Shown one piece after another: positions 4,686 through 53,600 of a DNA stretch of 64,000 bases (its first letter is position 1; each line of letters begins with the position of its first letter). The notes below the pieces were generated by a model. That model had not been told where the DNA came from. It did not search any database and saw nothing but the letters and a program-made list of their open reading frames with translations. This DNA is from Stenotrophomonas indicatrix. Its GTDB lineage: Bacteria > Pseudomonadota > Gammaproteobacteria > Xanthomonadales > Xanthomonadaceae. A program made the translations under genes and the position numbers. Where the stretch lies: contig CP168152.1 of NCBI GenBank assembly GCA_041545745.1, forward strand, positions 2,168,001 to 2,232,000, written 5' to 3'.

Positions 4686-5824
4686 GCAGCGATTACCTCA
4701 AAAGGAGAAGGGGTGGTGCGCAGGCGCTGTTCCAGCGGCGCGTCGGTGGCGGCGATCACCGCGCCACCCAGGCAGACCTCACCGTCATACAGCACCAGGG
4801 ATTGCCCGGGGGTGACTGCACGCTGCGGCCGGTCGAAGGAAACTTGCACGCTGCCGTCGTCCAGCACGTTTACCGTGCACGGCTCATCCGGCTGGCGGTA
4901 GCGGGTCTGCGCGGTGCATTCAAAACGCCGTGCCGGTGGCGCGCCGGCGATCCAGTGCGCGGTTTCCGAGCGCAGCCGGTTGGACAGCATCCATGGGCTG
5001 TCGCGATCCTGGTCCACGTACAGCACATTGCTGGCCACGTCCTTGCCGACCACATACCAGGGAGCGGCAGGGCGGCCGCGCACGCCGCCGATGTTCAGGC
5101 CTTCGCGCTGGCCCAGGGTGAAATAGAACACGCCAGGATGTTCGGCGATCACGCTGCCATCGCTGGGGTCGAGGATCTGCCCGGTTTTGGCCGGGAGGTA
5201 GCGGCCAAGGAACTCGCGGAAATCGCGCTCGCCGATGAAGCAGATGCCGGTGGAGTCCTTCTTGGCGTGGGTCGGCAGGCTCACGTCGCGCGCAATCCGG
5301 CGCAGGTCGCTCTTTTCCAGGTCGCCAATCGGGAACAGCGTGGCCGCCAGCTGTTCCTGCCCCAGCTGGTGCAGGAAGTAGCTCTGGTCCTTGGAACGGT
5401 CGGCGCCGCGCAGCAGCAGCCACTGATGGCCGCGCTGGGCAATGCGCGCGTAGTGGCCGGTGGCGATCCGCTCGGCGCCCAGCTCGCGGGCCGCATCGAG
5501 GAAGTGCTTGAACTTCACTTCGCGGTTGCACAGCACGTCCGGGTTCGGCGTGCGGCCGGCGGCGTACTCGGCCAGGAAGTGCTCGAACACCCCCTGCCAG
5601 TACTCGTTGGAGAAATCGCGGAAATGGAATGGGATGCCCAGCAGCCCGCAGACAGCCACCGCATCGCGACGATCATCTTCGGCGCGGCAGTCACCGCTGC
5701 CGTCGTCGGCCCAGTTCTGCATGAACAGACCGGCCACGGCCTCGCCCTGCTGTACCAGCCGCCAGGCGGCCACGGAAGAGTCCACGCCGCCAGACACGCC
5801 AACCATCACCCGTGGGCTGCTCAT
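4682..5824 (-). CDS. mnmA: tRNA-specific 2-thiouridylase MnmA
   Basis: 380 aa. It catalyses 2-thiolation of U34 in tRNA-Lys, -Glu and -Gln. The PP-loop motif GVSGGVDSS is at residues 9-17. The catalytic cysteines are Cys99 ([12 protein letters not shown]) and Cys195 ([12 protein letters not shown]). The family signature GHYAR is near residue 123. The start is the ATG overlapping the upstream nudix gene's stop codon (ATGA), which excludes a longer in-frame extension. It lies in an operon with nudJ and hflD. Confidence 0.98.
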
Positions 5825-35889: not shown

Positions 35890-36014
35890 GTGTCCCCTTC
35901 GTGCGCGACGCACGGCACTGCATTGCAACAAAACTGCAGAAAAAGCTGGATTAAAGTGATGCCTCACGATAAATTGCGCACCCCCCGTTGCTTGCCGCCG
36001 CCCGCACCCTGCCC

Positions 36015-37155: not shown

Positions 37156-39483
37156 TCAGGGCGCCGGCGCGGCTCTCGAGCCCCGGGAGCCGCGCCACGT
37201 TCGCAGCTCGGCCAGTAGCTGGCGCGCATCGCCCCAGAGGGGCGGCACGCGATCGCCCAGCTCCCATAGTTCGCCGGCGCGTGCATCCATGCCGCCCGCG
37301 TTGAGCATCTGCAGCACGCCCTGCAGGCGATGCGCATGATGGCGCAGCTGCGCGGCATCGCAACGAGCGATCGCTTCATGCAGGCATTGCAGCTCGCGAT
37401 CGATATCTTCTTCGTAGGCGGCCACCAGTTCGCGGGCAGTGCTCTCGACGGCACGGCCGGGCACAGGCTGGCCCAGCGCCTGCAGCAGCGCGTCGGCCTG
37501 CAACGGCTTGAGCAACACCGCGTCGATGCCGGCAACCTGGCAGCGCAGCGTGTGGTCGTCGCCAGTGAAGGCGGAAAGCGCGATCAGCCGGGCGCGCGGC
37601 GCGCCTTCTGCCTCATGCAACCGCAATTGCCGGGCCAGCGCGTAGCCATCCATTCCCGGCAGACCGATGTCCAGCATCACCAGCGGGCAGGGCGCCTGCC
37701 CCTGGGCTGCCAAGGCATCTTCGGCATTGGCAGCCTCCTGCACCGTCGCGCCCCAGCGCCGCAACTGGGCGGCAATGACCTGTCGGGTCAGCGCGTGATC
37801 CTCCGCCAGCAGGATGCGCATACCGGCCAGCCGGGGCAGGGCGGACGCAGTGGTAGTGGCAGGCGCATCTTCCTGCACCTGCCGCATGGGCAGGCGAAGA
37901 ATGAAGCGGCTGCCACGGCCATGTACGCTATGGACATCCAGGGTGCCGGCCATGGCTTCGGCCAGCGTGCGACAGATGGAAAGTCCCAAGCCGCTGCCGC
38001 CGCGCTGCCTGCCTGCATCGGCCTGCCGGAAGGGCTCGAACAGGGTGCTCATCTGCGCTGGCGCGATGCCGATGCCGCTGTCGATGACCTCTATCAACAG
38101 TGATGCGTTCTTCGTGGGCGCATCCAGCTGCAGGCGCAGTTCAACGCCGCCTACGTCGGTGAACTTGACGGCATTGCCGAGCAGGTTGTCGAGCAGCTGG
38201 CGCAGGCAGTCCGGGTCCGTTGCCATCATCGGGAACGGCATCTGCGGTGCGCGGAGCTGCAAGCTCAGCGCCTTCTTCTGCGCTAGGGGCGTAATGGCCT
38301 GCAGCGCCTGCGTACAGATCGCAGGGACGTTGCAGGGCACCTGCTTTGGCCGGAAAGTGCCGCTGGCCAGGCGAGAGAAGTCCAGCGTGCGGTTGAGCAA
38401 TCCGCGCAATGTCTGGCTGGCAGTGGCCGCAGCGGCCACCAGCTCGCGCTGCCCGGCTGGCAGTGGCGCTTGGCCCAGCAGGTCGATCGACGCCATGACG
38501 GCCTGGGCGGAATTGCGCACCTCATGGCTGATCATGCCCGTCATCTGCACCTGCTTCTGATCAAGACCCTGCTGCTGGCGCAGCCTGCGTGCAGCCAGCA
38601 ACGGGAATGCCAGCAGCAGGGCTGCGGCTGGCAACAGCCAGAGCGCGGTGCCATCGAGGCCTTCGCGCACCTTCTGGCCGAGCGCGGCCGGCAGCGTCTG
38701 CCGGGCCCAGCGCTGCAGCAGTTGGGCATGCTCTTCGATGGTGATGTCATCCAGTGCCACCTCGATACGATCAAGCAGCGCCTGGTCTTCGCGCCGGGCG
38801 AGCAGATGCAGCTGTGTCGAAAAATCGGCATCAACTGTCTGTAGCCGCAGACTGTGGGAGAAGTGACGCCGTGCTATCGCACCTGCAGTGGATTCCAGGC
38901 CGATCGCAGCGTCGGCAATGCCGGCATCCACGGCAGCCAATGCCGCCCGCATGCTGGGGTGCGGCAGTACAGGCACTGCAGGGTGGTGCTGTGCCAGCCA
39001 CGCTGGGTAGGGGCCTCCTTCAACAGCAGCGATGCGCAACGTACCGAGATCGGCAAACCGCCGCGGCAAACGCTCACCGATGCGGCCGGCGAGCACGCTC
39101 GCGCCGCCATGAAAGCTGCGCGATGGCGCCAGGCTGGGGCAGGGCAGGTGCGCCCCATCGTCAGCACCCATCGCCAGCACAAGATCGGCCCGTCCCTCAC
39201 AGACGGCGGCCATCGCGGCGAGGGTGCTGGGAAAAGGAACTTCGATGAAGGTCAGGCCGGAATGGCGGGCAACGAGCGCGGCATAGCCATGCGCCAGCGT
39301 CTGCAGCACCTCGGGGTCGGCAGCATCTTCGGGGGCGGGATGCAGCGTGGGGCCCGCAGCCACCCGGACCTCGCGTCCAGCCGCCCATTCTCCGTGCCGG
39401 ATGTCGCCGGCGGACGTGCAGGGAAGCAGCGTGAGCAGCGCCAGCAGCAGGCAATTGCGGACGCGCTTGAACAGCGCGGTCAC
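37156..39483 (-). CDS. BvgS/EvgS-like hybrid sensor histidine kinase
   Basis: 775 aa starting at a GTG that overlaps the response-regulator stop (GTGA). Order: signal-anchor, one periplasmic substrate-binding-like domain (about 35-265), a membrane helix (about 283-303), HisKA with MISHEVRNS, HATPase with DNLLGNAVKFT, DSGIGI and GSGLGLSI, a receiver domain (MRILLAEDH, VMLDIGLPGMDGY, KPL) and a C-terminal HPt domain with HAHRLQG. BvgS normally has two Venus-flytrap domains plus PAS; here there is one and no PAS. Signal unknown. Confidence 0.92.
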   Translation of the reverse strand: MTALFKRVRNCLLLALLTLLPCTSAGDIRHGEWAAGREVRVAAGPTLHPAPEDAADPEVLQTLAHGYAALVARHSGLTFIEVPFPSTLAAMAAVCEGRADLVLAMGADDGAHLPCPSLAPSRSFHGGASVLAGRIGERLPRRFADLGTLRIAAVEGGPYPAWLAQHHPAVPVLPHPSMRAALAAVDAGIADAAIGLESTAGAIARRHFSHSLRLQTVDADFSTQLHLLARREDQALLDRIEVALDDITIEEHAQLLQRWARQTLPAALGQKVREGLDGTALWLLPAAALLLAFPLLAARRLRQQQGLDQKQVQMTGMISHEVRNSAQAVMASIDLLGQAPLPAGQRELVAAAATASQTLRGLLNRTLDFSRLASGTFRPKQVPCNVPAICTQALQAITPLAQKKALSLQLRAPQMPFPMMATDPDCLRQLLDNLLGNAVKFTDVGGVELRLQLDAPTKNASLLIEVIDSGIGIAPAQMSTLFEPFRQADAGRQRGGSGLGLSICRTLAEAMAGTLDVHSVHGRGSRFILRLPMRQVQEDAPATTTASALPRLAGMRILLAEDHALTRQVIAAQLRRWGATVQEAANAEDALAAQGQAPCPLVMLDIGLPGMDGYALARQLRLHEAEGAPRARLIALSAFTGDDHTLRCQVAGIDAVLLKPLQADALLQALGQPVPGRAVESTARELVAAYEEDIDRELQCLHEAIARCDAAQLRHHAHRLQGVLQMLNAGGMDARAGELWELGDRVPPLWGDARQLLAELRTWRGSRGSRAAPAP

Positions 39484-40106
39484 AGGGCCTCCAGCTGCTG
39501 CCGCATGGCGAAGATCTCCGCGTCGTTGCGCAGCCCCAGCTTGCGCAGCGCGGCAATCTTCTGCGTGCTGACGGTCTTCACGCTGCGATGCCGGTGCAGG
39601 GCAATTTCCGAGACGGTCAGCCCGTCCAGAACCAATCGAATGACCTCGCGCTCATTACGGCTCAGGGCATCGCAGGGCGTCAGCAACTTGCACGAAGGCG
39701 GTATCCGGCAAAGCCCTTGCGAGACGCGCACAACCGCCTCGGAGAGTTCAGCCAAAGGCTCGGATTTGCCGACAAAGCCGCTGATTCCCGCATCCAGCAG
39801 GTGGTTGATGATCGCCACCGAGTTCTGCCCGGCGAAGCCAAGCAGCGTTACCCGCGGCAACGCCTGTCGCAGATGCTGGACGAGCTCGGCGCCGCTGATA
39901 TCACCCGGCGCCAGGGTGATATCGATGATGGCCACATCCGCGTGGCATTGCTGCAGGGCCAGCACGAAGGCCTGGCTGTCACTGTGGCTGGCGACGATCT
40001 CGAAGCGGCTGTCGTTGCCGAGATGAAAGGCCGTGCCGCGGCGGACGACGTCATGGTCATCGAGCAGCGCCAGGCGAAGCCGGCGCGGTGCAGGGAATCC
40101 GTTCAT
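39480..40106 (-). CDS. BvgA/EvgA-like response regulator (NarL/LuxR type)
   Basis: 208 aa. The N-terminal receiver has acidic LLDDHDVV and the likely phospho-acceptor in VAIIDITL. The C-terminal LuxR-type HTH (ALSRNEREVIRLVLDGLTVSEIALHRHRSVKTVSTQKIAALRKLGL) binds DNA. It is translationally coupled to the downstream hybrid kinase, its predicted phosphodonor through the HPt domain. An in-frame ATG at 40172 would add 22 residues without homology; 40106 is preferred. Targets are unknown. Confidence 0.9.
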   Translation of the reverse strand: MNGFPAPRRLRLALLDDHDVVRRGTAFHLGNDSRFEIVASHSDSQAFVLALQQCHADVAIIDITLAPGDISGAELVQHLRQALPRVTLLGFAGQNSVAIINHLLDAGISGFVGKSEPLAELSEAVVRVSQGLCRIPPSCKLLTPCDALSRNEREVIRLVLDGLTVSEIALHRHRSVKTVSTQKIAALRKLGLRNDAEIFAMRQQLEAL

Positions 40107-41234
40107 GCGCAGCAGTGTTGTCAGCGCCGAGTGGCGTGGTGCCCATTCTGGCGCTGCTGTCGCGTCGAGCATCGAAAACGTTCGATTTTTGAGACTTTTC
40201 CTAGAGCGGAGTTGGTAGAAGTTGAAGTCTTGTGTCGGCAATGACACGGCGTGAGCGCGGTGCAGTAGCCTGATGCGTCCACCAACTTCTGAGTTGCGTC
40301 CGCAGGCGCGCGCGAGCTGCGTGTGCTGCGGACGCTGACAATGCATAGCGCTGGCTGGACGCCAGCACCGAGGGTGCCGGCCCAAAGTCGAGGCGGTCGA
40401 TGGGCCTGAAGGGATCAATTAACGTGACGCGTCACGGCGACGGGATTGCTGGGCGGTGAATTCTGCAGGACTTAGGGCGTGGGTGACGCTCAGAATTCAA
40501 CGCTCGCCCGGTGAGGTGCGCATGGTTGATGGGGGGTTGAGCGTGCCGACCCGTGGTTGGCGGTGCTACAAGGATGAGTTGTTGTGAGTCTGGGCGCTGC
40601 CGGCGACCAAGGCTGCGGTGGCTGGATGGCTGGAGATAGAAGCTGCGGTGATGCTGGGGTGTCCTGGGGCGGTCGGTTGGAAGACGCGTCGGATGCCCAG
40701 TCGCTGAGAACATAATATACATTATGCGAAATGCTGTTTCAGGCTGCGGCAGCGTTCGTGTCTTCTGCTTGGCAATGGCTCCGGCTCTGGCTTGGCTCTC
40801 AAGGTCTTCTACATGAGCCTCGCCAGCGCGCGTGTGGTGAGCACCTTCCGCCGATTGAGCGGAAGCGTTGGAATTTCCCGCGGCTGACCACCGGATTTTG
40901 ACGCTGGTGAATCTTGCAACCATCGGAGTGCTTGCGGTTGGCGGCATTAACAGTGCCTGGAGTGAGCGGTTTGAAGGTTTGCGGCGAGCCATCGAGGCCG
41001 CTTAGCAGTCGTCGACGGTGAGGACTGAGGCGCCGACGGCTGTTAGTTCGGTGCCATCGGCACTTCCCGAGCGTCAGCTGGTACAGCCATCCCAGAAAGT
41101 GCAGAATCTGCGCTGCATCAATGGAATGCTCTTCCGTCGAATTGAGGGTGGCTGGGAGAACCTGCCGAATTCAAATTGTGATGCGAACTTGATAGCCCAA
41201 CGATCTCATATCCACTTCTTAAGGGGAATTTCTG
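40107..41234. other. 1.1-kb stretch without a convincing gene, containing dif
   Basis: Between the response regulator and the P-loop ATPase gene there is no ORF with good codon use or a ribosome site. It contains the dif-like site at 40705-40732 and several short inverted repeats (for example GAATTC-centred arms near 40460 and 40495). It also holds a short frame near 40880-41003 (ending INSAWSERFEGLRRAIEAA) that may be a gene remnant. From dif rightwards base composition becomes less GC-rich. Confidence 0.7.
40705..40732 (-). other. dif: dif site (XerCD chromosome dimer resolution site)
   Basis: On the minus strand: XerC arm ATTTCGCATAA, 6-bp centre TGTATA, XerD arm TTATGTTCTCA. The inner bases of both arms and the centre equal the E. 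coli dif (GCATAA-TGTATA-TTATGTT). The XerC arm is close to that of other gammaproteobacteria. The outer four bases of the XerD arm (CTCA) differ from the usual AAAT. That is what would be seen if a filamentous phage or other Xer-using element had recombined here. dif marks the replication terminus region. Confidence 0.88.
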
Positions 41235-42479
41235 ATGAAGGCAACGGACGTTTTTACCCCGCAGCGGCTACCGACAGTCACATTGGTTACGGATCATCTC
41301 AAGGGGATGAAGACAACGTACGATCGTGCGATTGAAGAAGGCGGAAAGCTTGTCCGCGTCGTCGGGCCCTCAAAGTCGGGGAAAACCGTCTTCATTAAGA
41401 GCGCCGCAGGCACCGAGAACACCGTTATCGTTACCGGGGCTGGCGTCACCTCTCCCGACTTGCTGTGGACACGCATACTTCATGCTATTGGGAGCGACAC
41501 GGGGCAATCCGCCGAGAGAGTTGAGGTCATGTCCGGGGGATACAAAGTCTCCGGCGAGGTGGAAGGCAGCATCCTAGTCGCCAAGGCCAAAGCGAATGGA
41601 GAGGTGAGTCGAGGAAAATCTTCTGAGGCCTCACTGACTCAGACAAAGGCAATCGATCTGTTGCAAGTAGTCATAGCAGATTTGGCGAATAGCGGACTTA
41701 CCATCTTCGTCGACGATTTCCACTACATCCCAACGGATGTCCAAACCGCTCTCGCACAGCAGATCAAGCGCGCAGTCGAAGCAGGTGTGCGGATAGCGAC
41801 GGCTGCCGTTCCGTTTCGATCGGAAGATGTTCTACGCGCCAACGACGATCTTCAAGGTCGGATTGTAGACTTTAACTTCAAGTACTGGTCAGACGACGAG
41901 CTTGTTGCTATTGCAAAGCAGGGTTTCGTGACGCTGAACGTAGTCTGCTCGGACGACTTTGCACTTTCCATGGCACAAGAGGCAGCCGGATCTCCGCAGC
42001 TTATGCAATCCCTCTGCTTAGAGGCGTGCTATGCAATTGGCGCGTCAGAGACTGCTGAGCGGCCAATACAAATTCCTGACGAAAGAGGATTTCTCGCCCA
42101 GGTATGCAATGCGGCATCAAAGGTCGTTGACTTCAGCACGACGATCAACGTAATGCGGGAAGGCCCACTCATTCGCGGCAACCCACGAAAAGCATACGTG
42201 TTGAAGGACGATACGGCTGAGGACGTTTATCAGATATTGGTCAGGGCCATCGCAATGGACCCGCCGAAGCTCCACTTTAGCTACTCTGACATGCAGGTCA
42301 GAGTTGCGGCACTTTGCAAGAGCGATAGTCCTCACTTTTCGGATTCATGCTTCCATATGGCAAGACTTGTAAACGACCGTTCAAACTCCGACAAGCTAGA
42401 TTGGAATGCTGAGCAACACCGGTTGAGTATTCGAGATCCATATCTTTTGTTTGGCATCCGTTGGGGCGGCAATCGCTAA
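41235..42479 (+). CDS. P-loop ATPase of unknown function in accessory island
   Basis: 414 aa. Walker A GPSKSGKT (44-51), Walker B LTIFVDDFHY (Asp160, Asp161), and an AAA/STAND-like continuation (RIATAAVPFRSEDVLRANDDLQGRIVDFNFKYWSDDEL). The C-terminal part ends with a possible winged helix (PKLHFSYSDMQVRVAALCKSDSPHFS). A good Shine-Dalgarno (AAGGGG) precedes the ATG. Codon use is much less GC-biased than in the core genes, typical of recent transfer. Similar stand-alone ATPases occur in phage-defence and mobile-element contexts, but function is not established. Confidence 0.8.
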   Translation: MKATDVFTPQRLPTVTLVTDHLKGMKTTYDRAIEEGGKLVRVVGPSKSGKTVFIKSAAGTENTVIVTGAGVTSPDLLWTRILHAIGSDTGQSAERVEVMSGGYKVSGEVEGSILVAKAKANGEVSRGKSSEASLTQTKAIDLLQVVIADLANSGLTIFVDDFHYIPTDVQTALAQQIKRAVEAGVRIATAAVPFRSEDVLRANDDLQGRIVDFNFKYWSDDELVAIAKQGFVTLNVVCSDDFALSMAQEAAGSPQLMQSLCLEACYAIGASETAERPIQIPDERGFLAQVCNAASKVVDFSTTINVMREGPLIRGNPRKAYVLKDDTAEDVYQILVRAIAMDPPKLHFSYSDMQVRVAALCKSDSPHFSDSCFHMARLVNDRSNSDKLDWNAEQHRLSIRDPYLLFGIRWGGNR

Positions 42480-42794
42480 GCTCGCCTACTCTAGAAGCTT
42501 GCAGGGTAAGGCGGCGTCTCCGGGAACATCCTCATGGGGCGTTTCCTGACCTCAGTCAGTGCGTGTGGCATCGAGATTTTTGCCTTGGTGCCCTGCTTTG
42601 TTACGCACGCGCACGTAGTGCCTTAGGGCGCCAAGCACCTGTCGGCGCCAAAAAGCGCCGCCCCCCCCTGGTCTTCCTTTCCTCGCTCACGGCCCTCAAG
42701 CAATCGCTGCCCCTTATCAATGACCGAACGAACGAGGTCTGTAAGAGCGCATGCATACTTGATACTTCCATGGGAGGGAGCAGAGGCTCTCTAC
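42480..42794. other. Gap of about 315 bp, no supported gene
   Basis: An ORF crosses the region on the plus strand, but it has poor composition, no ribosome site and overlaps the ATPase gene. I see no clear terminator. The stretch separates the ATPase gene from the convergent small gene and membrane-protein gene. Confidence 0.5.
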
Positions 42795-43026: not shown

Positions 43027-43758
43027 CTATTTCCCGAATGCATCGCGCCTGCTCTTCGCAAGAAACGAGCCTGCAAGCCAAGACGCGGAGAAGCCCAAGA
43101 TGCCTGCGCCTGCGGGAGCCAGGATATTCTGAAGCAATTCCGAGGGCGGTTTTGACCCAGTGATAGCTATCACGACCGTGCCAGCCAGGGCGCCGGCACT
43201 CATGAAGGCGATGGCGGTCAATAGAGATATCCGGGAACGGGACTCCATTGTCTGATGTTTGAACTTTGAGATGCCCTGGACGCGCCCCTCAATTCGATGG
43301 GACTCATAGCCTGCAACGATCAGGTCAACCGCAATCTCATCACCCGCGTTCAGCACTGCGGTATGCACTGAGAATCCCTGCTCATTAATCTTGAGCTCAA
43401 CGTGCTCGCTCAGCTGCGGTGGACTACAGTAACCAACGTTTGCGCTCAGCAGGCGAGCTCCGCCCGTAAGGGAAACACCAATTGGATGAACTACATCCGC
43501 CCCAGGTATGGGCATCCTTCCACAATTGGTGAGAAAGAACCTATAGATCGCCACGTCCCTCACCTTCTCCCCATGGAACAGTATTTCCACGGCCCCTTGG
43601 GCAACTTCCTTCACTGAAACCAGATGACTAGATAGCTCCAAACCACAGCCAATTGCTGAGATCTTGCGCTGAAGTGCGTAGATGCCTATCGAGACAGCGA
43701 TGGCGAATACCGCCACGTAGATCCCTATCCAACCCACAGTCAAATAGCCGTCACCCAT
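43027..43758 (-). CDS. Unknown membrane protein (243 aa) in accessory island
   Basis: An N-terminal membrane helix (YLTVGWIGIYVAVFAIAVSIGIYAL), a soluble beta-rich middle domain of about 140 residues (EVAQGAVEILFHGEKVRDVAIYRFFLTNCGRMPIPGADV) and two C-terminal helices (SLLTAIAFMSAGALAGTVVIAI and a Gly/Ala-rich one). A strong GGGAGGGGGG precedes ATG 43758. No family recognised. The composition is less GC-rich than the core. Convergent with the ATPase gene; whether the two act together is open. Confidence 0.7.
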   Translation of the reverse strand: MGDGYLTVGWIGIYVAVFAIAVSIGIYALQRKISAIGCGLELSSHLVSVKEVAQGAVEILFHGEKVRDVAIYRFFLTNCGRMPIPGADVVHPIGVSLTGGARLLSANVGYCSPPQLSEHVELKINEQGFSVHTAVLNAGDEIAVDLIVAGYESHRIEGRVQGISKFKHQTMESRSRISLLTAIAFMSAGALAGTVVIAITGSKPPSELLQNILAPAGAGILGFSASWLAGSFLAKSRRDAFGK

Positions 43759-44323
43759 ACACCCCCCTCCCAAGTATGTAAGTAGGCTCACATTCTACTA
43801 GCCCGTGGGTAGTTAGGATCAGGAATTGAGCGTGGCAGCCACGCGGATTGAGAGATGCGCCGATCCACCTGACCCGGTTTCGACTGGTGACGTATTTGCC
43901 TTGCTCCCGGCGCGCCCGTCCGGGCATCCGCGCCAAATATCACCACAAATCGATACCGCCGACAGCCCTTGCAGCCCAAGCCTCTAGCGCCCTTCCCCGC
44001 CATACAACGATTCTGAAAACGTCGGATACGGTGACGGCATTGCCCTTACTGTATTGGCATCGCGCGCAACCGGGCGTATTCCTTGCCATGCCACCGATAG
44101 CGGGTGGCCGGGCGTCGAAAACCCGTGTCTTTGTGCTTGATTGCGCTTGCCAGCCGGCACCACCGTTGCGTGGTGCCGGCTGGCAATCCGTCTGCCGGCT
44201 ATGGCGGGCGGTGCGTGGGGGCCTTGTGCCCGCCGGTTTTGCACAAAGACCCGGTTTTCGAGCCACGCATCGTCCGCCACCTTTATCGGTGGCGGCTTCT
44301 GCTTGCACGCAAGGAGCCCCGCC
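43759..44323. other. Gap of about 565 bp with a large nested palindrome
   Basis: No supported gene. Frames on the minus strand look protein-like in places (KTRVFDARPPAIGGMARNT), but they run through the palindromes and lack ribosome sites. The right half holds the nested inverted repeats at 44117-44260. A Shine-Dalgarno for the next gene lies at its end. Confidence 0.55.
44117..44260. repeat. Nested inverted repeats around a 17-bp perfect hairpin
   Basis: Outer arms 44117-44137 (CGAAAACCCGTGTCTTTGTGC) minus one base at the end of the written match, and 44241-44260 (GCACAAAGACCCGGTTTTCG), nearly perfect complements. Inside the left half lies a perfect 17-bp stem (44148-44164 with 44171-44187; TTGCCAGCCGGCACCAC arm) with a 6-nt loop. 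No coding function fits. Confidence 0.85.
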
Positions 44324-44674
44324 ATGACCTACTCCCCCGCCCCACAGCCCATCCACGAGGCGCCCTCGGCCGGGCCTACCGTGGATCCCAACACCTTCAT
44401 CGCGCTGCTGCACAGCATCGGCTCGGGCGTGGCCGCCAACGGCCAGCCCTGGCCAGAGCGGCACCAGCTGCATGGCAGGCAGATGGCACTGGCCGATGCC
44501 GACTGTTCGCTGACAGGCCTGCGCGTGGTGCTGGAAGTACTACTGGCCGCAGAACGTACCCGCCAGAATGGTGAGCCAGAGCAATACGTCGGCGATCGGG
44601 TGATGGAAGGACTGATCATGGCCGGCCTGGGGCTTGCAGCCCACGCAAGCGAACGGCTGAAGCCGGCAGAGTGA
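44324..44674 (+). CDS. Hypothetical protein (116 aa)
   Basis: Starts MTYSPAPQPIHEAPSAGPTV after AAGGAGCCCCGCC, a good Shine-Dalgarno. A proline-rich N-terminus is followed by a helical domain (ADCSLTGLRVVLEVLLAAERTRQNGE and VMEGLIMAGLGLAAHASERL). It resembles short conserved proteins found in integrative elements, but I cannot name a family. It lies directly after the nested palindrome. Confidence 0.65.
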   Translation: MTYSPAPQPIHEAPSAGPTVDPNTFIALLHSIGSGVAANGQPWPERHQLHGRQMALADADCSLTGLRVVLEVLLAAERTRQNGEPEQYVGDRVMEGLIMAGLGLAAHASERLKPAE

Positions 44675-44686
44675 AGGACCACTTCG

Positions 44687-45175
44687 GTGGGGCCTGAAAT
44701 GAAGGTGCGCCACGGCGTGATGTGGGCGGTCTTTCTGGCGCTGGTCGTTGCAGTACAGATCCATTCGCCAGAGCCTGTTGAGCCGGAAGTGCTCGCGTAC
44801 CGTGATGTACCCGATGAGACATTCTGGACGCTGCGACGCCACGCGCTTCGATTCGCGGAGGCGCGGGCGCGGGAGGGTTTCGAGTTCCTGGATGGGACGT
44901 CCGGTTCGGCTTCCTTCCAGATCCAGTGCAAGGGTGTGCCGGTGCTGCACGTAGAGAGGCAGCCGCCGCTTCTGCTGATCCGGGTTGCGCTGGGCACCGA
45001 GCATCGGGCGCCTGCGATCTTCCCCTTGCAGGCCACGCTGCAATGGTCCTTGGTGCCGTTGAGCTATCTGGAGCAGGTCCTGTCTGGCGTGCAGGAACCT
45101 ACGCTGCAGGATCGGCTGCTGCTGACGCTTGCTGGCGATGTACCTGAGGATGCGCGGTGTGGCGTGCGGAGGTAG
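44687..45175 (+). CDS. Hypothetical single-pass membrane protein (162 aa)
   Basis: GTG start at 44687 with AAGGA eight bases upstream; an ATG at 44699 is the alternative. One N-terminal hydrophobic helix ([17 protein letters not shown]) and a soluble C-terminal part ([27 protein letters not shown]). No family recognised. It begins 12 bp after the previous stop codon, suggesting an operon. The gene is convergent with uvrA2. Confidence 0.6.
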
Positions 45176-45202: not shown

Positions 45203-47854
45203 TCACCCACCCTGCCTCAGCTCGCGCGCAAGGAACGGCGCCGTCCTGCTTCCCTTGGCGCGCGCTACCTGCTGCGGCGTTCCCTTCGCCACGATGGTGC
45301 CGCCCGCAGCGCCTGCGCCAGGTCCGACGTCAATCACCCAGTCCGCCTGCATAACCGCGCGCATGTCATGTTCAATCATCACCACCGTATTGCCCGCGTC
45401 CACCAGCCGCTGCAGCTGCACCAGCAGCCTGTCCGCGTCCGATGCATGCAGGCCGGTGGTGGGTTCGTCCAGCACGTAAAGCGTGCGCCCACGCTGGCTG
45501 CGCTGCAGCTCGGTCGCCAGCTTGATGCGTTGTGCTTCACCGCCTGACAGTTCCGTGGCCGGCTGACCCAGTCGCAGGTACCCCAGGCCGATTTCCTGCA
45601 GCAACTGCAGCGGACGGGCAATGGCCTCCTCCTCGATGAAGAACGCATGCGCCTGCTCAACCGTCATCTGCAGGACCTCGGCGATGTTGCGGTCATTCCA
45701 CAGCACGGCCAGCGTGGCCTCGTTGTAACGCGCGCCGTGGCAGGTGGGGCACGGCGCATAGACGCTGGGCATGAACAGCAGTTCGACGCTGACGAAACCT
45801 TCGCCTTCGCAGGTCTCGCATCGGCCCTTGGCCACGTTGAACGAGAAACGGCCGGCATCGAAACGCCGACGGCGCGCGGCGGGCGTAGCGGCGAACAGCT
45901 TGCGCACGTGGTCGAACAGCCCGGTATAGGTGGCCAGGTTGGAGCGTGGCGTGCGGCCGATGGGTTTCTGGTCCACCTGCACTACCCGCTGGATGGCATC
46001 CACATTGCCGGCCAACCGGCCTCGGGTCGCTTCGATCACGGTCGGCGCGTCGGTGGGCGCACTCTCGGCGCTGTTGTCCTCGGGCTCATGCCCCAGGTGC
46101 AGCAGCACCAGCTCGGGCAGTGCCTGCGCCATCAGGCTGGATTTGCCCGATCCTGAAATGCCGGTCACTGCGGTCAGCAACCCCAGCGGCACCTGCGCAT
46201 CCACGCCCTGCAGGTTGTGGCGGTGGATGCCCTTCAGCTCCAGCCAGTTGCTGGCGCTGCGCTGCCGGCTGGCGGCCGCAGGCACCTGGTCGAACAGATA
46301 CCGGGCGGTGCGCGATTCCTGGACCTTGCGCAGGCCGTCGGGCTCGCCACTATAGAGAACGCGCCCGCCGTGCTCACCCGCCTCCGGGCCAACATCCACC
46401 AGCCACTGCGCGCGGCGCATCAGCTCCAGGTCGTGCTCGACAACGAACACCGAGTTTCCGCCGTCGCGCAACCGGTCCAGCGCGTCGTACAGCGCCTGGC
46501 TGTCGGCGGGGTGCAGGCCGGCCGAGGGCTCATCAAGCACGTACAGCACGCCAAACAACAACGAGCTGAGCTGCGTGGCCAGCCGCAGACGCTGCAGTTC
46601 GCCGGCCGACAGGGTGGGCGTGGCTCGATCCAGCGAGAGATATCCCAGGCCCAGGCCTCGCAGCTGGTGTACACGCGTCATGACCCCGCCTGCCAGCCGC
46701 TGCGCGGCCAAGCGCTTCTCTTCCGACAGGGCCGAGGTCAGCCGCACGTCGGGGGCTCCAGCATGGACAGGGCGGCCGCTTGCAGCCCGCTGCGTGCGAT
46801 CGCGTTTCGTGGCGCTACCGCTGGTACGCGCGCCGCGGCTGTGCGCGCTGAAATCGCCCTGCGCGATGGGCCCCAGCAGATCCGCCAACTGGTCCAGCGG
46901 CAGCCGCATGAACTCACCGATATCCACACCGGCGAAGGTGACCGAAAGTGCCTCCGGCTTCAGGCGCTTTCCGTGGCAGGCGGGGCACAGCTTGCCTTCC
47001 ATGTAGCGGGAAACGCGCTTGCGCATCAGCGCGCTCTGGGTGTTGGCAAAGGTGTGCAGCACGTAGCGGCGCGCACCGGTATAGGTACCCATGTAGCTGG
47101 GTTCCAGCTTGCGCTTCAGTGCGGCGCGAGTCTCTGCGGGCGTGAAGCCGGCATAGACCGGCACGGTTGGCGTTTCCTCGGTAAACAGGATCCACTCCCT
47201 GTCCTTCTTCGGCAGCTTCTTCCACGGTATGTCGATGTCGTAGCCCAGCGTGACCAGGATGTCGCGCAGGTTCTGGCCATGCCATGCCGGCGGCCACGAG
47301 GCGATGGCACGTTCACGGATGCTCAGCGACGGGTCCGGAACCATCAGCGCTTCGGTCACCTCGTACACATGCCCCAGGCCATGGCAGGTGCTGCAGGCGC
47401 CCTGCGGCGTATTGGGCGAGAAGTCCTCGGCGTACAGCATGGGCTGGTTGGCCGGGTACGCCCCGGCGCGCGAGTACATCATGCGCACCAAGCTGGACAG
47501 CGTGGTCACGCTGCCCACCGAGGAACGTGCATTGCTGGCACCGCGCTGCTGCTGCAGGGCCACCGCTGGCGGCAGCCCGTCGATGGCATCCACATCGGGT
47601 ACGCCCGCCTGGTCGATCAGGCGCCGCGCGTATGGCGCTACGGATTCGAAGTAGCGCCGCTGCGCCTCAGCGAAGACGGTACCGAAGGCCAACGACGACT
47701 TGCCCGACCCCGACACCCCGGAGAACACCACCAGTGCATTGCGCGGAATGGAGACATCGACATTCTTGAGGTTGTGCTCGCGCGCGCCGCGCACCTCCAC
47801 GCAACCGCTGGCTGCGGCAGCGCATGAGGATTCACCGAAAGGGTTGTTGGACAT
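45203..47854 (-). CDS. uvrA2: Class II UvrA (UvrA2-like) ABC ATPase
   Basis: 883 aa. Two ABC ATPase halves: [14 protein letters not shown] and [11 protein letters not shown]alker A motifs, [15 protein letters not shown] and [15 protein letters not shown] signatures, [10 protein letters not shown] and [11 protein letters not shown]alker B. Zinc-module cysteines ([26 protein letters not shown]) are present. After [21 protein letters not shown] the sequence jumps to [13 protein letters not shown], so the UvrB-binding region of classical UvrA is missing. That is the mark of UvrA2, linked to DNA-damage or drug tolerance. Start at ATG 47854 ([10 protein letters not shown]). Confidence 0.93.
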
Positions 47855-48021
47855 CGTTGCGTTCCTGCAGGCAGTGAGCTGTGCGCCTTGGAGTGCGCCC
47901 AAGGACGCATTTTCGCTGCTGCGAGGTGAATGTGGTGAGGGGATGTGCGGCCCCGCCCTGCGGGCCCCGCAAACCGCATCACCTGCCGACTGCAAGGGGC
48001 GCGTGGCAGCGAACGTATCGC

Positions 48022-50647: not shown

Positions 50648-53600
50648 TTAGAACTGCCAGACAGCCGTTGCCTTGATGGCATTGTCCGACGACCCGCTGG
50701 CAAGCTGGCCGTTGTAGGCAATGTCAAACGTCAGGTTCTTCCGGATCTGGAAGAGCATGCCCACATCGACCACGGCGGCATTGCGCGAGAGCGGGACACC
50801 ATTCACAACGAAATTCGTTGTGCCCTCGGCGAAGCGCAGGCTGCTTGAAGGATCGACGTAGCCCGAAGCGTGCCGCCACCCCAGCGCGCCGTGCAGCGAG
50901 AACGCGTCGCCCTGAAGCGTGCCGTTCCAGGTGCCCCGTGCGCCGAGCGTGGTCAGCGTGGTGTTATGGCGGGCATCGTCAACTACCAGGGCGTTCGTAT
51001 CGCCCTGTTCCTGGAAACCGTCGGTGCGCAAACGCACGTAGGCCACCTGGGCAAACGGCTCGATTGATTTCGTCTCGGAGCCAATCGGATAGCCCACCTC
51101 GACGAACGCCTGGCCCAGATGGGCCTTCGCTTGCCCGGTGACAAACCCGCTCCCATCGAGCAGGCTGGCCTGGCGGTCCACATCCAGCTTTTGCCGCGTA
51201 TCGGCCACGCCTGCCCGCAGCTTGAACGCCCCCATCCCGGCACCACCGTACAGCCCGAAGGTGACGTCGTCGCCGGAACTGCGCACCATGCGCGAGGATT
51301 TCAGCGACGTGTGAGTCGATCCTGCCACCAGGCCGATTCGTCCCTGCTCACCAATCTGTCGGTCGGCACCGGCCATGACGCCGCTGACCGTGCTTTTCAC
51401 GCGCGCGGTCCCGTTGTCACCATCCAGGTGCCCCCACGCGCCGACGAAGTGTGCCCACAACGACCACGGCGTGTCTTCGCTGCCCCTCAATGCGCCAGGA
51501 CCGGTTTCGCCCTGCCGCAAGCGGCCAGTTACTGCTTCGCGCAGGTAACGGCTGTGGTCGATCCATGCGGCCTGTGCGCTGGCGTAGGCCTCACCGGACA
51601 GTTCCACGGCCCGCTCACGCACCGCCAGATCGGTAGGCTGATTGATGACGGTCAGATAGACGGGGTTGGTGACGGGCAGCTCCTGGACAGCCACCAGCAC
51701 GGCCTGCTCGTTCGGTGTGCTGCCCACTTCGGGCAGGGAACGGACCTGGGTGACATCGACATAGGCGCTCTGGCCGTCGTAACCGGCCTGCAGCCCCAGC
51801 ACGGCCGACAACTGCGGCAGGCTGTTTGACAACGTGTACGTACCGGTAACCCCCTGATCGGCACTGAGCAGGGTGTAACGCGTACCTGGCGTGAAGCCGG
51901 CGGCGGTATTGGCGAACTGGATGTTCAGCACGCTGCCCGGGTCCAGCGTCGCAGTGCCCTGGACCTTCAGCAGATCAGACTGCCCAGGTTGCGCGGCATT
52001 GATTTCGGCCAAGTGCACCGAGCCGGCCTGTGCGTGATAGTCGCCCATCACGGTCAGTGTCTGGTAGCCCGGCGACGTTGCCGCGCCCGGCCTGACCGTG
52101 CCGCCACTGGCAACGGTCAGCGCGCCCACGCTACCGCTGCCGCCCAGCGTTGCGCCGGATTGAACGCCGATCGTGCCGCCCAAAGCCTGGTTCACATAAA
52201 GCGAACCACCCTGCACAGTAGTGGTGCCGGTAAACGCCGCGCCGTCGCCATTGAAGAAGGTGGTGCCTGCAAGATGGTCGATGCTGCCGCTACCGGAAAA
52301 ACCGGGTGCGAACGCATAGGCGCTGTCAGTGTGGTTGAACGTTATTTTGCCGGTGCCCGCACCGAAGTCGACGGCTGGTGCCTCCACCGCGCCAGCCGCA
52401 CTAGGTGCGGTACCCGTCGCGCTGCCGATGACGAGCTCGCCAACCGAGCCCGCCTGTGAGGCCACGACAATCGGCCCGGTGCTCTGCAGGCTGGCGTTGC
52501 CGCCTACGTTCAGCAGGCCTTTTCCGGCGTTGCCGATGACCAATCCGCCGGCGCCTGTTGTCAGTGTAGTGTCCGCTCCATCCAGCGCCAGGGTGCCTTC
52601 CGAGCCGGCCTGTGATGCCAAAACGATTGGCCCATCGCTCTGCAGGCTGGCGCGGTCACCGACGGTCAGCAGGCCCTTTCCAGCATTGCCGATGACCAAT
52701 CCGCCGGTGCCGGTTGTCAGTGCCGTGTCCGTTCCTTCCAGCACCAGCGTGCCTTGGGAGCCGGCCTGCAGGCCCAGTGTCAATTGATTCTCCGCCGTGA
52801 AGCTGGCGCCTCCCGAGAGGTTCATCGTGGCCGCATCAGCGAAGCCGATGAATGCCGGTCCGCCAGTAGTCAGCGATGTCCCCTGCCCCGTCAGCGTGGC
52901 TGTTCCCGAAGAACCAGCGAACCCGCCAACAGAGAAGGCACCGGCGACCTGAAGGCCGGCGCCATCACTCATTTCCAGCGTGGCATCACCCAGGCGTCCG
53001 ATTGCCAATGTGGTGGTGAAGTCGAGCAAGGTCGATGGGCCACGCAACGTGATCCTGCCAGTCGATCCGCTCTCTTCGGCAACATTGTTGGCCCCGCCCT
53101 GAACCTGCATGACCGCCCCATCTGAAAGCTCCAGGCTGGCATTGCCGGAATCGCCAACCAGAAGTCCATTGGTGATCAGTACAGAATCCGCACCGGCGAC
53201 AGAAACAGTGCCGACTGCACCGGCATCCGAACCGATGCGCAGCACGCCGTCGGACGTCGCTACGGCGCCACCACTGACCGCGAAGGCCCCGTTGCCAGAG
53301 TTCCCTACGTAAATGTCACCCGTGGCCAGCGTGGTGTTCTGCCCATCCAGCTGGACCCGGCCGACGCCATCAGCGTTCTGGCCAATGAGCAGCTCGCTCG
53401 ACGTGAAGCCGGCGCCATTGGCGAGCTGGATCGAAGCCTCGCCGGAACTCCCAACGTAGGTGGTGCCATCGACATTCAGCGCTGTGCCGAGCCCATCCAG
53501 TTTCACTTGGCCGATGCTGCCGGCCTGGTCTGCGATCACCAGATCGGCACTGGTGCCCGCAGTCGCCCCAGCGCCCATGTCCAATGTGCCATTGCCCGCG

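Follow-up and report, generated by a model that had tools for sequence, protein, structure and literature searches.

Yeh is said to have described XerD-dependent integration of phage Cf2 in 2020, and a 2010 study by Hassan reportedly found that the TLC phage alters dif in Vibrio cholerae. Integration of the XerC class is well known, and TLC in Vibrio is a known case of a phage that reconstitutes dif. In the parts of the papers at hand (PMC4246890, PMC5357621), the TLC phage site becomes part of a working dif, as in the locus described here, but the host is another one and the TLC attP keeps the XerC arm next to a degenerate XerD arm. As far as the same portions go, CTX and VGJ have their homology on the XerC side, EludIMEX-1 is homologous at the XerC-binding site, the gonococcal genetic island retains the XerC arm and has a degenerate XerD arm, and none of CTX, VGJ, TLC, the gonococcal island and EludIMEX-1 belongs to an XerD-arm class (PMC4246890, PMC5357621). 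The gonococcal genetic island resembles our locus in being a Xer-integrated element that adjoins dif and in involving a divergent XerD arm. However, in the part of PMC5357621 at hand it has two flanking sites, 57 kb of DNA and type IV secretion, and these were not found here: the 10 ORFs scanned near dif matched no type IV secretion Pfam family, and there is one dif site only.

The nearest comparisons come from the host family itself. The phages Cf1c, XacF1, PSH1 and SMA9 have an attP made of the dif centre and the XerC arm, which gives the kind of junction seen here, and in PSH1 and XacF1 the gene containing attP is split on integration (for XacF1 this is ORF12, in the part of PMC4076744 at hand); our locus differs in holding only fragments of such a phage, and its far junction was not found. 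The filamentous phages phiSHP2, SMA6, SMA7 and Cf2 use the same dif as the phage studied here, but their attP is made of the XerD arm and the centre, and their prophages, which are inverted, occupy the opposite side of dif; none was found at our locus. The dif of Xanthomonas campestris pv. campestris ATCC 33913, described by Carnoy and Roten in 2009, is like ours in the centre, the XerC arm and the inner six XerD bases, and its outer XerD bases are likewise not ATTT (TCCT), the outer five being TCCTG against TGAGA here (PMC2731167, in the portion at hand). For an exchange of dif arms from both sides we found no description in our searches of the openly licensed literature, and we do not claim that it is unpublished.

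The dif site and the replication terminus

The window, by which we mean the whole stretch of 64,000 nucleotides that was analysed, contains a 28-bp site at 40705-40732 that reads, on the minus strand, ATTTCGCATAA (XerC arm), TGTATA and TTATGTTCTCA (XerD arm). Its parts are as follows.

40705..40715, minus strand: XerD-binding arm of dif (plus strand TGAGAACATAA); conserved over its inner 7 bp and unusual in its outer 4 bp; taken to be host-native from the left flank, which aligned to loci L155 and L187
40716..40721, minus strand: central region of 6 bp (plus strand TATACA)
40722..40732, minus strand: XerC-binding arm (plus strand TTATGCGAAAT); judged phage-derived, as homology to PSH1 DNA starts at the centre and passes through the arm

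The site has two 11-bp arms, a 6-bp centre and conserved inner arms, and there is one copy per chromosome. When the window was searched with a 19-bp core at up to three mismatches there was one exact match, and 0 of 100 shuffles gave any; a 24-bp core with a free centre also gave one exact match, three mismatches or fewer being reached in 1 of 100 shuffles. A genome-wide search (4,658,546 bp on 2 contigs) with the 19-bp core at up to three mismatches gave a single place, C1:2208710-2208728, and no second dif copy was found at that threshold. At up to one mismatch, the core occurs once in 83 of 91 Stenotrophomonas genomes, is missing from 8 and occurs twice in none. Position 25 of the site is a C where A is commonly conserved, a position that is not defining for dif. 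In the part of PMC2731167 at hand, the adenine at position 25 is highly conserved in proteobacterial dif sites and positions 23 and 24 are variable; binding of XerD could therefore be weaker at this site.

In order to place the site on the chromosome, polarity was sampled along the main contig at forty places of 20 kb each, and in the window, taken in three pieces. The GC skew is positive in 20 of the 22 pieces left of dif (two have the other sign) and negative in 17 of the 21 pieces right of it (four have the other sign). The motif GGGNAGGG, the FtsK guide motif (KOPS), which presumably serves as such in Stenotrophomonas, occurs 83 times forward and 12 times reverse left of dif, and 12 times forward and 81 times reverse right of it. 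Within the window, forward copies end before dif at 39137 and reverse copies set in beyond it at 43990; each side has a single exception, a reverse copy at 36007 and a forward one at 51731. On contig C1, which presumably starts with dnaA, dif lies at 2,208,719 of 4,651,465 and so opposite the presumed origin. The XerD model, which was used for both recombinases, has a full-length match at C1:623666 (354 bits, above the curated cut-off), taken as XerD, and another at C1:3970837 (278 bits, below the cut-off), taken as XerC; a third match is weak, at 26 bits. Since there is a single core, a switch of both skew and GGGNAGGG polarity, and two full-length matches to the XerD model, 40705-40732 is the chromosomal dif at the terminus of a Stenotrophomonas.

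A preliminary description of this DNA, made from its letters, had given the same 28 bp on the minus strand, exactly as they read; it had also noted that the outer four XerD-arm bases differ from AAAT, as they do at four of four positions (CTCA), and had put the locus at the replication terminus, where the polarity switch indeed lies. Neither of the two objections that it had raised against itself holds: GC skew does switch at this position, and a better dif match elsewhere does not exist in the genome at up to three mismatches to the core. Its accessory DNA of lower GC to the right of dif was borne out in that GC over 2-kb steps is 0.54-0.58 at 40-44 kb, where the phage remnant lies, against 0.64-0.67 at 33-41 kb; a second dip, down to 0.585, lies at 31-34 kb. 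No tRNA was found between 36 and 50 kb of the window.

Host and phage DNA beside dif

The DNA on the two sides of the site is made up of the following features.

40205..40704, no strand assigned: native host flank left of dif, 64% identical to the host flanks of L155 and L187; overlaps the upstream part of a response-regulator ORF (39480-40418)
40716..40799, plus strand: remnant, 3' end of a PSH1-ORF5-like regulator gene (83% to PSH1 by blastn; ORF5 residues 114-143, 77%); ORF5 contains attP in PSH1
40838..41167, plus strand: probable further filamentous-prophage DNA of about 330 bp between the ORF4-like region and zot (84.5% to L217, 86.4% to L238)
41235..42479, plus strand: P-loop ATPase of 414 aa, occupying the position ahead of zot, with a match to the candidate defence family PDC-S59
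42488..42624, minus strand: 3' end of a zot (pI) gene (tblastn to SHP2 Zot 317-404, 39%; blastn to phiSHP2 and many prophage loci)
43027..43791, minus strand: ORF of 254 aa with hardly any relatives (one protein cluster only), flanked by the zot remnant and host DNA
43951..45175, plus strand: host DNA right of the element, aligned to relatives, with conserved hypothetical genes at 44141-44674 and 44687-45175

On the left, 500 bp of flank plus 17 bp of the site were compared with L155 and L187, where host DNA stands to the left of a displaced XerD half-site; the alignment reaches the XerD arm with 309/484 and 311/486 positions identical, and identity in the last 145 columns next to the arm is 85/140 and 83/141 (59-61%). 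Several relatives have a conserved response-regulator homologue in the corresponding place, on the left of either dif or the displaced half-site. The left side of the window dif gave no match to a phage regulator gene, and no XerD-type half-site was found in 20-40.7 kb at up to 3/13 mismatches. From this alignment we judge the XerD arm of the window to be host-native. As an observation apart, four other genomes (G003, G061, G063 and G041, with loci L071, L052, L039 and L057) carry left of dif stretches of 460-542 bp that are 100% identical among the four and end 43-88 bp from dif, at differing distances; these stretches are probably an insertion sequence that favours a spot beside dif.

The right side is of phage origin from the centre onward. 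A blastn comparison of the window with 50,697 phage records matched four of them, namely two of PSH1 (40716-40799, 84 bp, 83%) and two of phiSHP2 (42567-42620, in zot, 85%), and the PSH1 homology begins at the dif centre and runs rightward through the XerC arm. In L217 and L238 the DNA matching the stretch of about 330 bp also stands right of dif. In L238 the 3' end of zot follows 133 bp beyond that stretch, and the ATPase gene can thus be seen to occupy the gap before zot. With 14 PSH1 and SHP2 proteins as queries, replication and coat genes were not found, only the ORF5-like and zot 3' ends. The best far half-site (centre and XerC arm) in 42.6-46 kb has 5/17 mismatches, which 16 of 200 shuffles equalled or bettered; with the far half-site missing, this is a remnant and not an intact prophage. 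The second dif copy bordering an integrated element, for which the preliminary description had suggested a search, was found neither by the genome core search, nor at the right end, where the half-site is no better than shuffles, nor on the left in 20-40.7 kb.

The ATPase at 41235-42479 matches PDC-S59 in PADLOC with 91.6 bits (E 1.3e-26) and has 1082 homologues among 7997 scored candidates; within the genus it has a match in 6 of 91 genomes, including this one, the other five being distant (20-32% identity). By this family match it is a candidate for an anti-phage function, and such a defence gene may be what kept the phage remnant in place. The 254-aa ORF at 43027-43791 falls in a single cluster, 100% identical on 5 contigs, the longest of them as long as this chromosome, and had no Pfam, PHROGs or PADLOC match. 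From about 43951 the host DNA aligns with that of G001, G059, G017, G035, G061, G053 and others, where it lies 3 to 12 kb right of their dif.

Two further observations belong here. A UvrA-like gene at 45203-47995 of the window has a 92% identical copy in G018 (L069) at +134 to +2722, and as that copy directly adjoins dif, the gene may be an old neighbour of dif. The second contig, C2 (G000, L074; 7081 bp), was considered as a free filamentous phage and rejected, as it is a head-to-tail dimer of a lambda fragment that also occurs as a small 'plasmid' in unrelated bacteria. A lambda fragment of this kind serves as a nanopore sequencing control, and C2 is probably such a control left in the assembly.

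Two phage classes and the outer XerD arm

Ten filamentous phages from the family (PSH1 and SHP2, both matched in the blastn search, and eight from among the matches listed) were sorted by the arm carried in attP, and they come in two mirror classes. In PSH1, SMA9, XacF1, Cf1c and XaF13 attP consists of the centre and the XerC arm, with 0-1/17 mismatches there and 4-5/7 in the inner XerD arm (PSH1, inside ORF5, has 0/17 and 5/7). In SHP2, SMA7, SMA6 and Cf2 it consists of the XerD arm and the centre, with 0-1/13 mismatches there and 6-10/11 in the XerC arm. The best XerC-type half in 100 letter-shuffled genomes has 4-7 mismatches and the best XerD-type half 2-5, and the Cf2 record annotates attP at 5499-5512, the same place as found here. 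The record of the tenth phage, fSU1 (L413), is given as a complete phage genome and holds a full dif as well as an XerD-type half, and may therefore include host DNA.

DNA of both classes is found beside dif. In G059, SHP2-like DNA (80.5% over 477 bp) lies left of dif, starting within one base of the centre. Dif sites were read in 42 of the 83 core-bearing genomes of the genus (91 searched): XerC-class DNA, recognized by half-site or gene match, stands right of dif in 22, XerD-class DNA left of it in 10, both in 5 and neither in 15. A far C half-site lies 4.0 to 8.5 kb right of dif in 12 of the 42 loci; the left stretches read in other genomes were about 5 kb (in two, 1.5 kb on each side), too short to reach a far left half-site. 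Among 120 viral contigs, a biased set picked for holding dif, phage DNA lies right in 75, left in 74 and on both sides in 47, and among the 117 genome contigs listed, from many genera, the counts are 15, 6 and 3. Displaced XerD half-sites occur in 41 loci, not mutually independent; after removal of four that lie at contig ends, 37 have readable outer bases. Among the 37 loci listed, the half-site is 5.7 to 8.0 kb left of dif in 35 and 1.5-1.6 kb left of it in the other two, L133 and L191. The outer bases of the displaced arm disagree with those of dif in 34 of the 37 readable loci and agree in 3. In at least two loci (L170, L268) the displaced arm in turn adjoins phage-like DNA, and so prophages stack. 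In L140, L142, L146 and L168, TATGCG-like bases come after the displaced half-site, offset by about two, as though an XerC arm stood behind a longer centre.

The outer end of the XerD arm varies throughout the family. Across the 42 Stenotrophomonas sites, plus-strand positions 1-3 hold 0.01-0.55 bits, and position 4 is G in 20 and T in 22. The centre is identical in 41 of 42 sites, these having been found by searching for it, and the inner positions are invariant or nearly so by construction, because the sites were found and picked by their inner sequence; positions 27 and 28, which had no part in the picking, show the common base in 40 of 42 each. We also counted the outer arm ATTT in at least 80 genome contigs whose inner site and XerC arm are identical to ours, a scan that demanded an intact XerC arm and was thus blind to variation there, and from which 37 of 117 entries without a printed title were left out. 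Among the matches listed, ATTT is present in 3 of 28 Xanthomonadaceae (= Lysobacteraceae; the set includes a Rehaibacterium and a Lysobacteraceae record) versus 43 of 52 others. Divergence of the outer XerD arm is therefore general in Stenotrophomonas and Xanthomonas, and is odd for proteobacteria at large but not for Xanthomonadaceae. With kinship ignored, the mean number of matches to ATTT in the 42 genomes is 1.47 with C-type phage DNA only (n=17), 1.40 with both types (n=5), 2.60 with D-type only (n=5) and 2.40 with neither (n=15), and the D-type-only mean speaks against a simple reading in which the phage makes the arm diverge.

Close relatives were compared in 43 pairs. Changes number 41/129 at -3 to -1 and 34/129 at +1 to +3, against 68/860 at -30 to -11, that is, rates of 0.26-0.32 from -3 to +3 versus 0.08; the 212/5160 at -150 to -31 is lowered by construction, the pairs having been picked for a similar far flank, and -30 to -11 is the fairer control. 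In the 29 pairs with phage-derived flanks there are 46/174 changes at -6 to -1 and 28/87 at +1 to +3, versus 57/696 at -30 to -7. The excess is weaker in the 12 pairs in which no phage gene was found (14/72 and 6/36 versus 23/288), and the two mixed pairs gave 3/12 and 0/6 versus 2/48. Exchange at the centre alone does not explain this excess. A pairing by 2.5 kb of upstream DNA was set aside, since small shifts blurred the ungapped comparison. Over positions -6 to +3 relative to dif, which take in the outer XerD arm with its neighbouring bases, the rate of change is about 3-4 times that of the flank at -30 to -11, with length kept. We considered a mutational hotspot in the XerD arm as a new phenomenon and set it aside; phages that bring an arm account for part of the variation.

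Probable origin of the hybrid site

We consider it very probable that the working dif of this strain is composed of a host XerD arm, the centre and a phage XerC arm, and that an old phage of the XerC class integrated here and then decayed. XerC and XerD would recombine sister chromosomes at 40705-40732 under FtsK. A phage of the PSH1/SMA9/Cf1c kind, with an attP that has no XerD arm, would have integrated at dif, leaving phage DNA on the XerC side and the hybrid site as the working dif. The far junction and most of the phage would have been lost later, the cargo ATPase surviving; with that junction gone the remnant would be beyond Xer excision, and the integration has to be read from one junction and from a PSH1 match that is short (84 bp). 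The preliminary description was close to the mark in suggesting a hybrid site left by a filamentous phage, and mistaken as to the half, which would be the XerC arm and the DNA to its right and not the XerD arm. In this genome the XerD arm continues into host DNA, which disagrees with its being the record of a phage. The notion of an XerD arm brought by a phage does hold for other strains of the family, through the second phage class (the SHP2/SMA7/Cf2 kind), which the preliminary description did not name. The comparison with related genomes that it recommended shows one core in 83 of 91, and an outer-arm difference that is common in the family.

One could suppose instead that the XerD arm does record a phage, of the SHP2/SMA7/Cf2 class, that integrated on the left, gave the outer arm and was then lost. 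Such an exchange is seen elsewhere, in the 34 of 37 displaced loci with different outer bases, phage DNA of this class stands at the left in 10 of the 42 Stenotrophomonas genomes, and the 59-61% identity of the last 145 columns leaves room for an older event of this type. Against this, the left flank of the window aligns to the arm with the host DNA beside the displaced half-sites of L155 and L187, and neither a phage regulator match nor an XerD-type half-site (up to 3/13 mismatches, 20-40.7 kb) was found there, which makes the supposition quite improbable for this strain. That 40705-40732 is a dif-like site of a phage or plasmid, the true dif lying elsewhere, would fit the phage DNA adjoining it, but can scarcely be credited for the only core match in the genome, located at the polarity switch, in a genus where 83 of 91 genomes have one core and none has two.

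For the outer bases alone, plain drift, at positions under weak constraint where a strong XerC arm is present, is a likely account and is compatible with a host XerD arm joined to a phage XerC arm. It agrees with the low information content of positions 1-3 over the 42 sites, and the arm of the window is also unlike the native ones of L155 and L187. The change rate of 0.26-0.32 from -3 to +3, however, exceeds the 0.08 observed at -30 to -11 and is more than would be predicted if that flank were neutral, although the flank may itself be constrained. Under our preferred reading of a hybrid site, the outer XerD-arm bases would hold no phage record here, lying beside host DNA and being weakly constrained in Xanthomonadaceae. 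A more speculative idea, which we regard as unlikely, is that dif in Xanthomonadaceae is rebuilt from both sides by the mirror classes of phage, and that the fast turnover of the outer XerD arm reflects a contest rather than drift, in which a new arm would hinder excision or re-integration of the same class while sparing dimer resolution.

A core DNA site of the cell cycle can thus be partly built of virus DNA and yet be the sole one of its kind in the chromosome, and many strains of the family have virus DNA next to one recombinase arm or both. Divergence of the outer arm in dif is by itself no sign of a local phage event. The arm variants are natural material for asking which dif bases are needed by XerC, XerD and FtsK.
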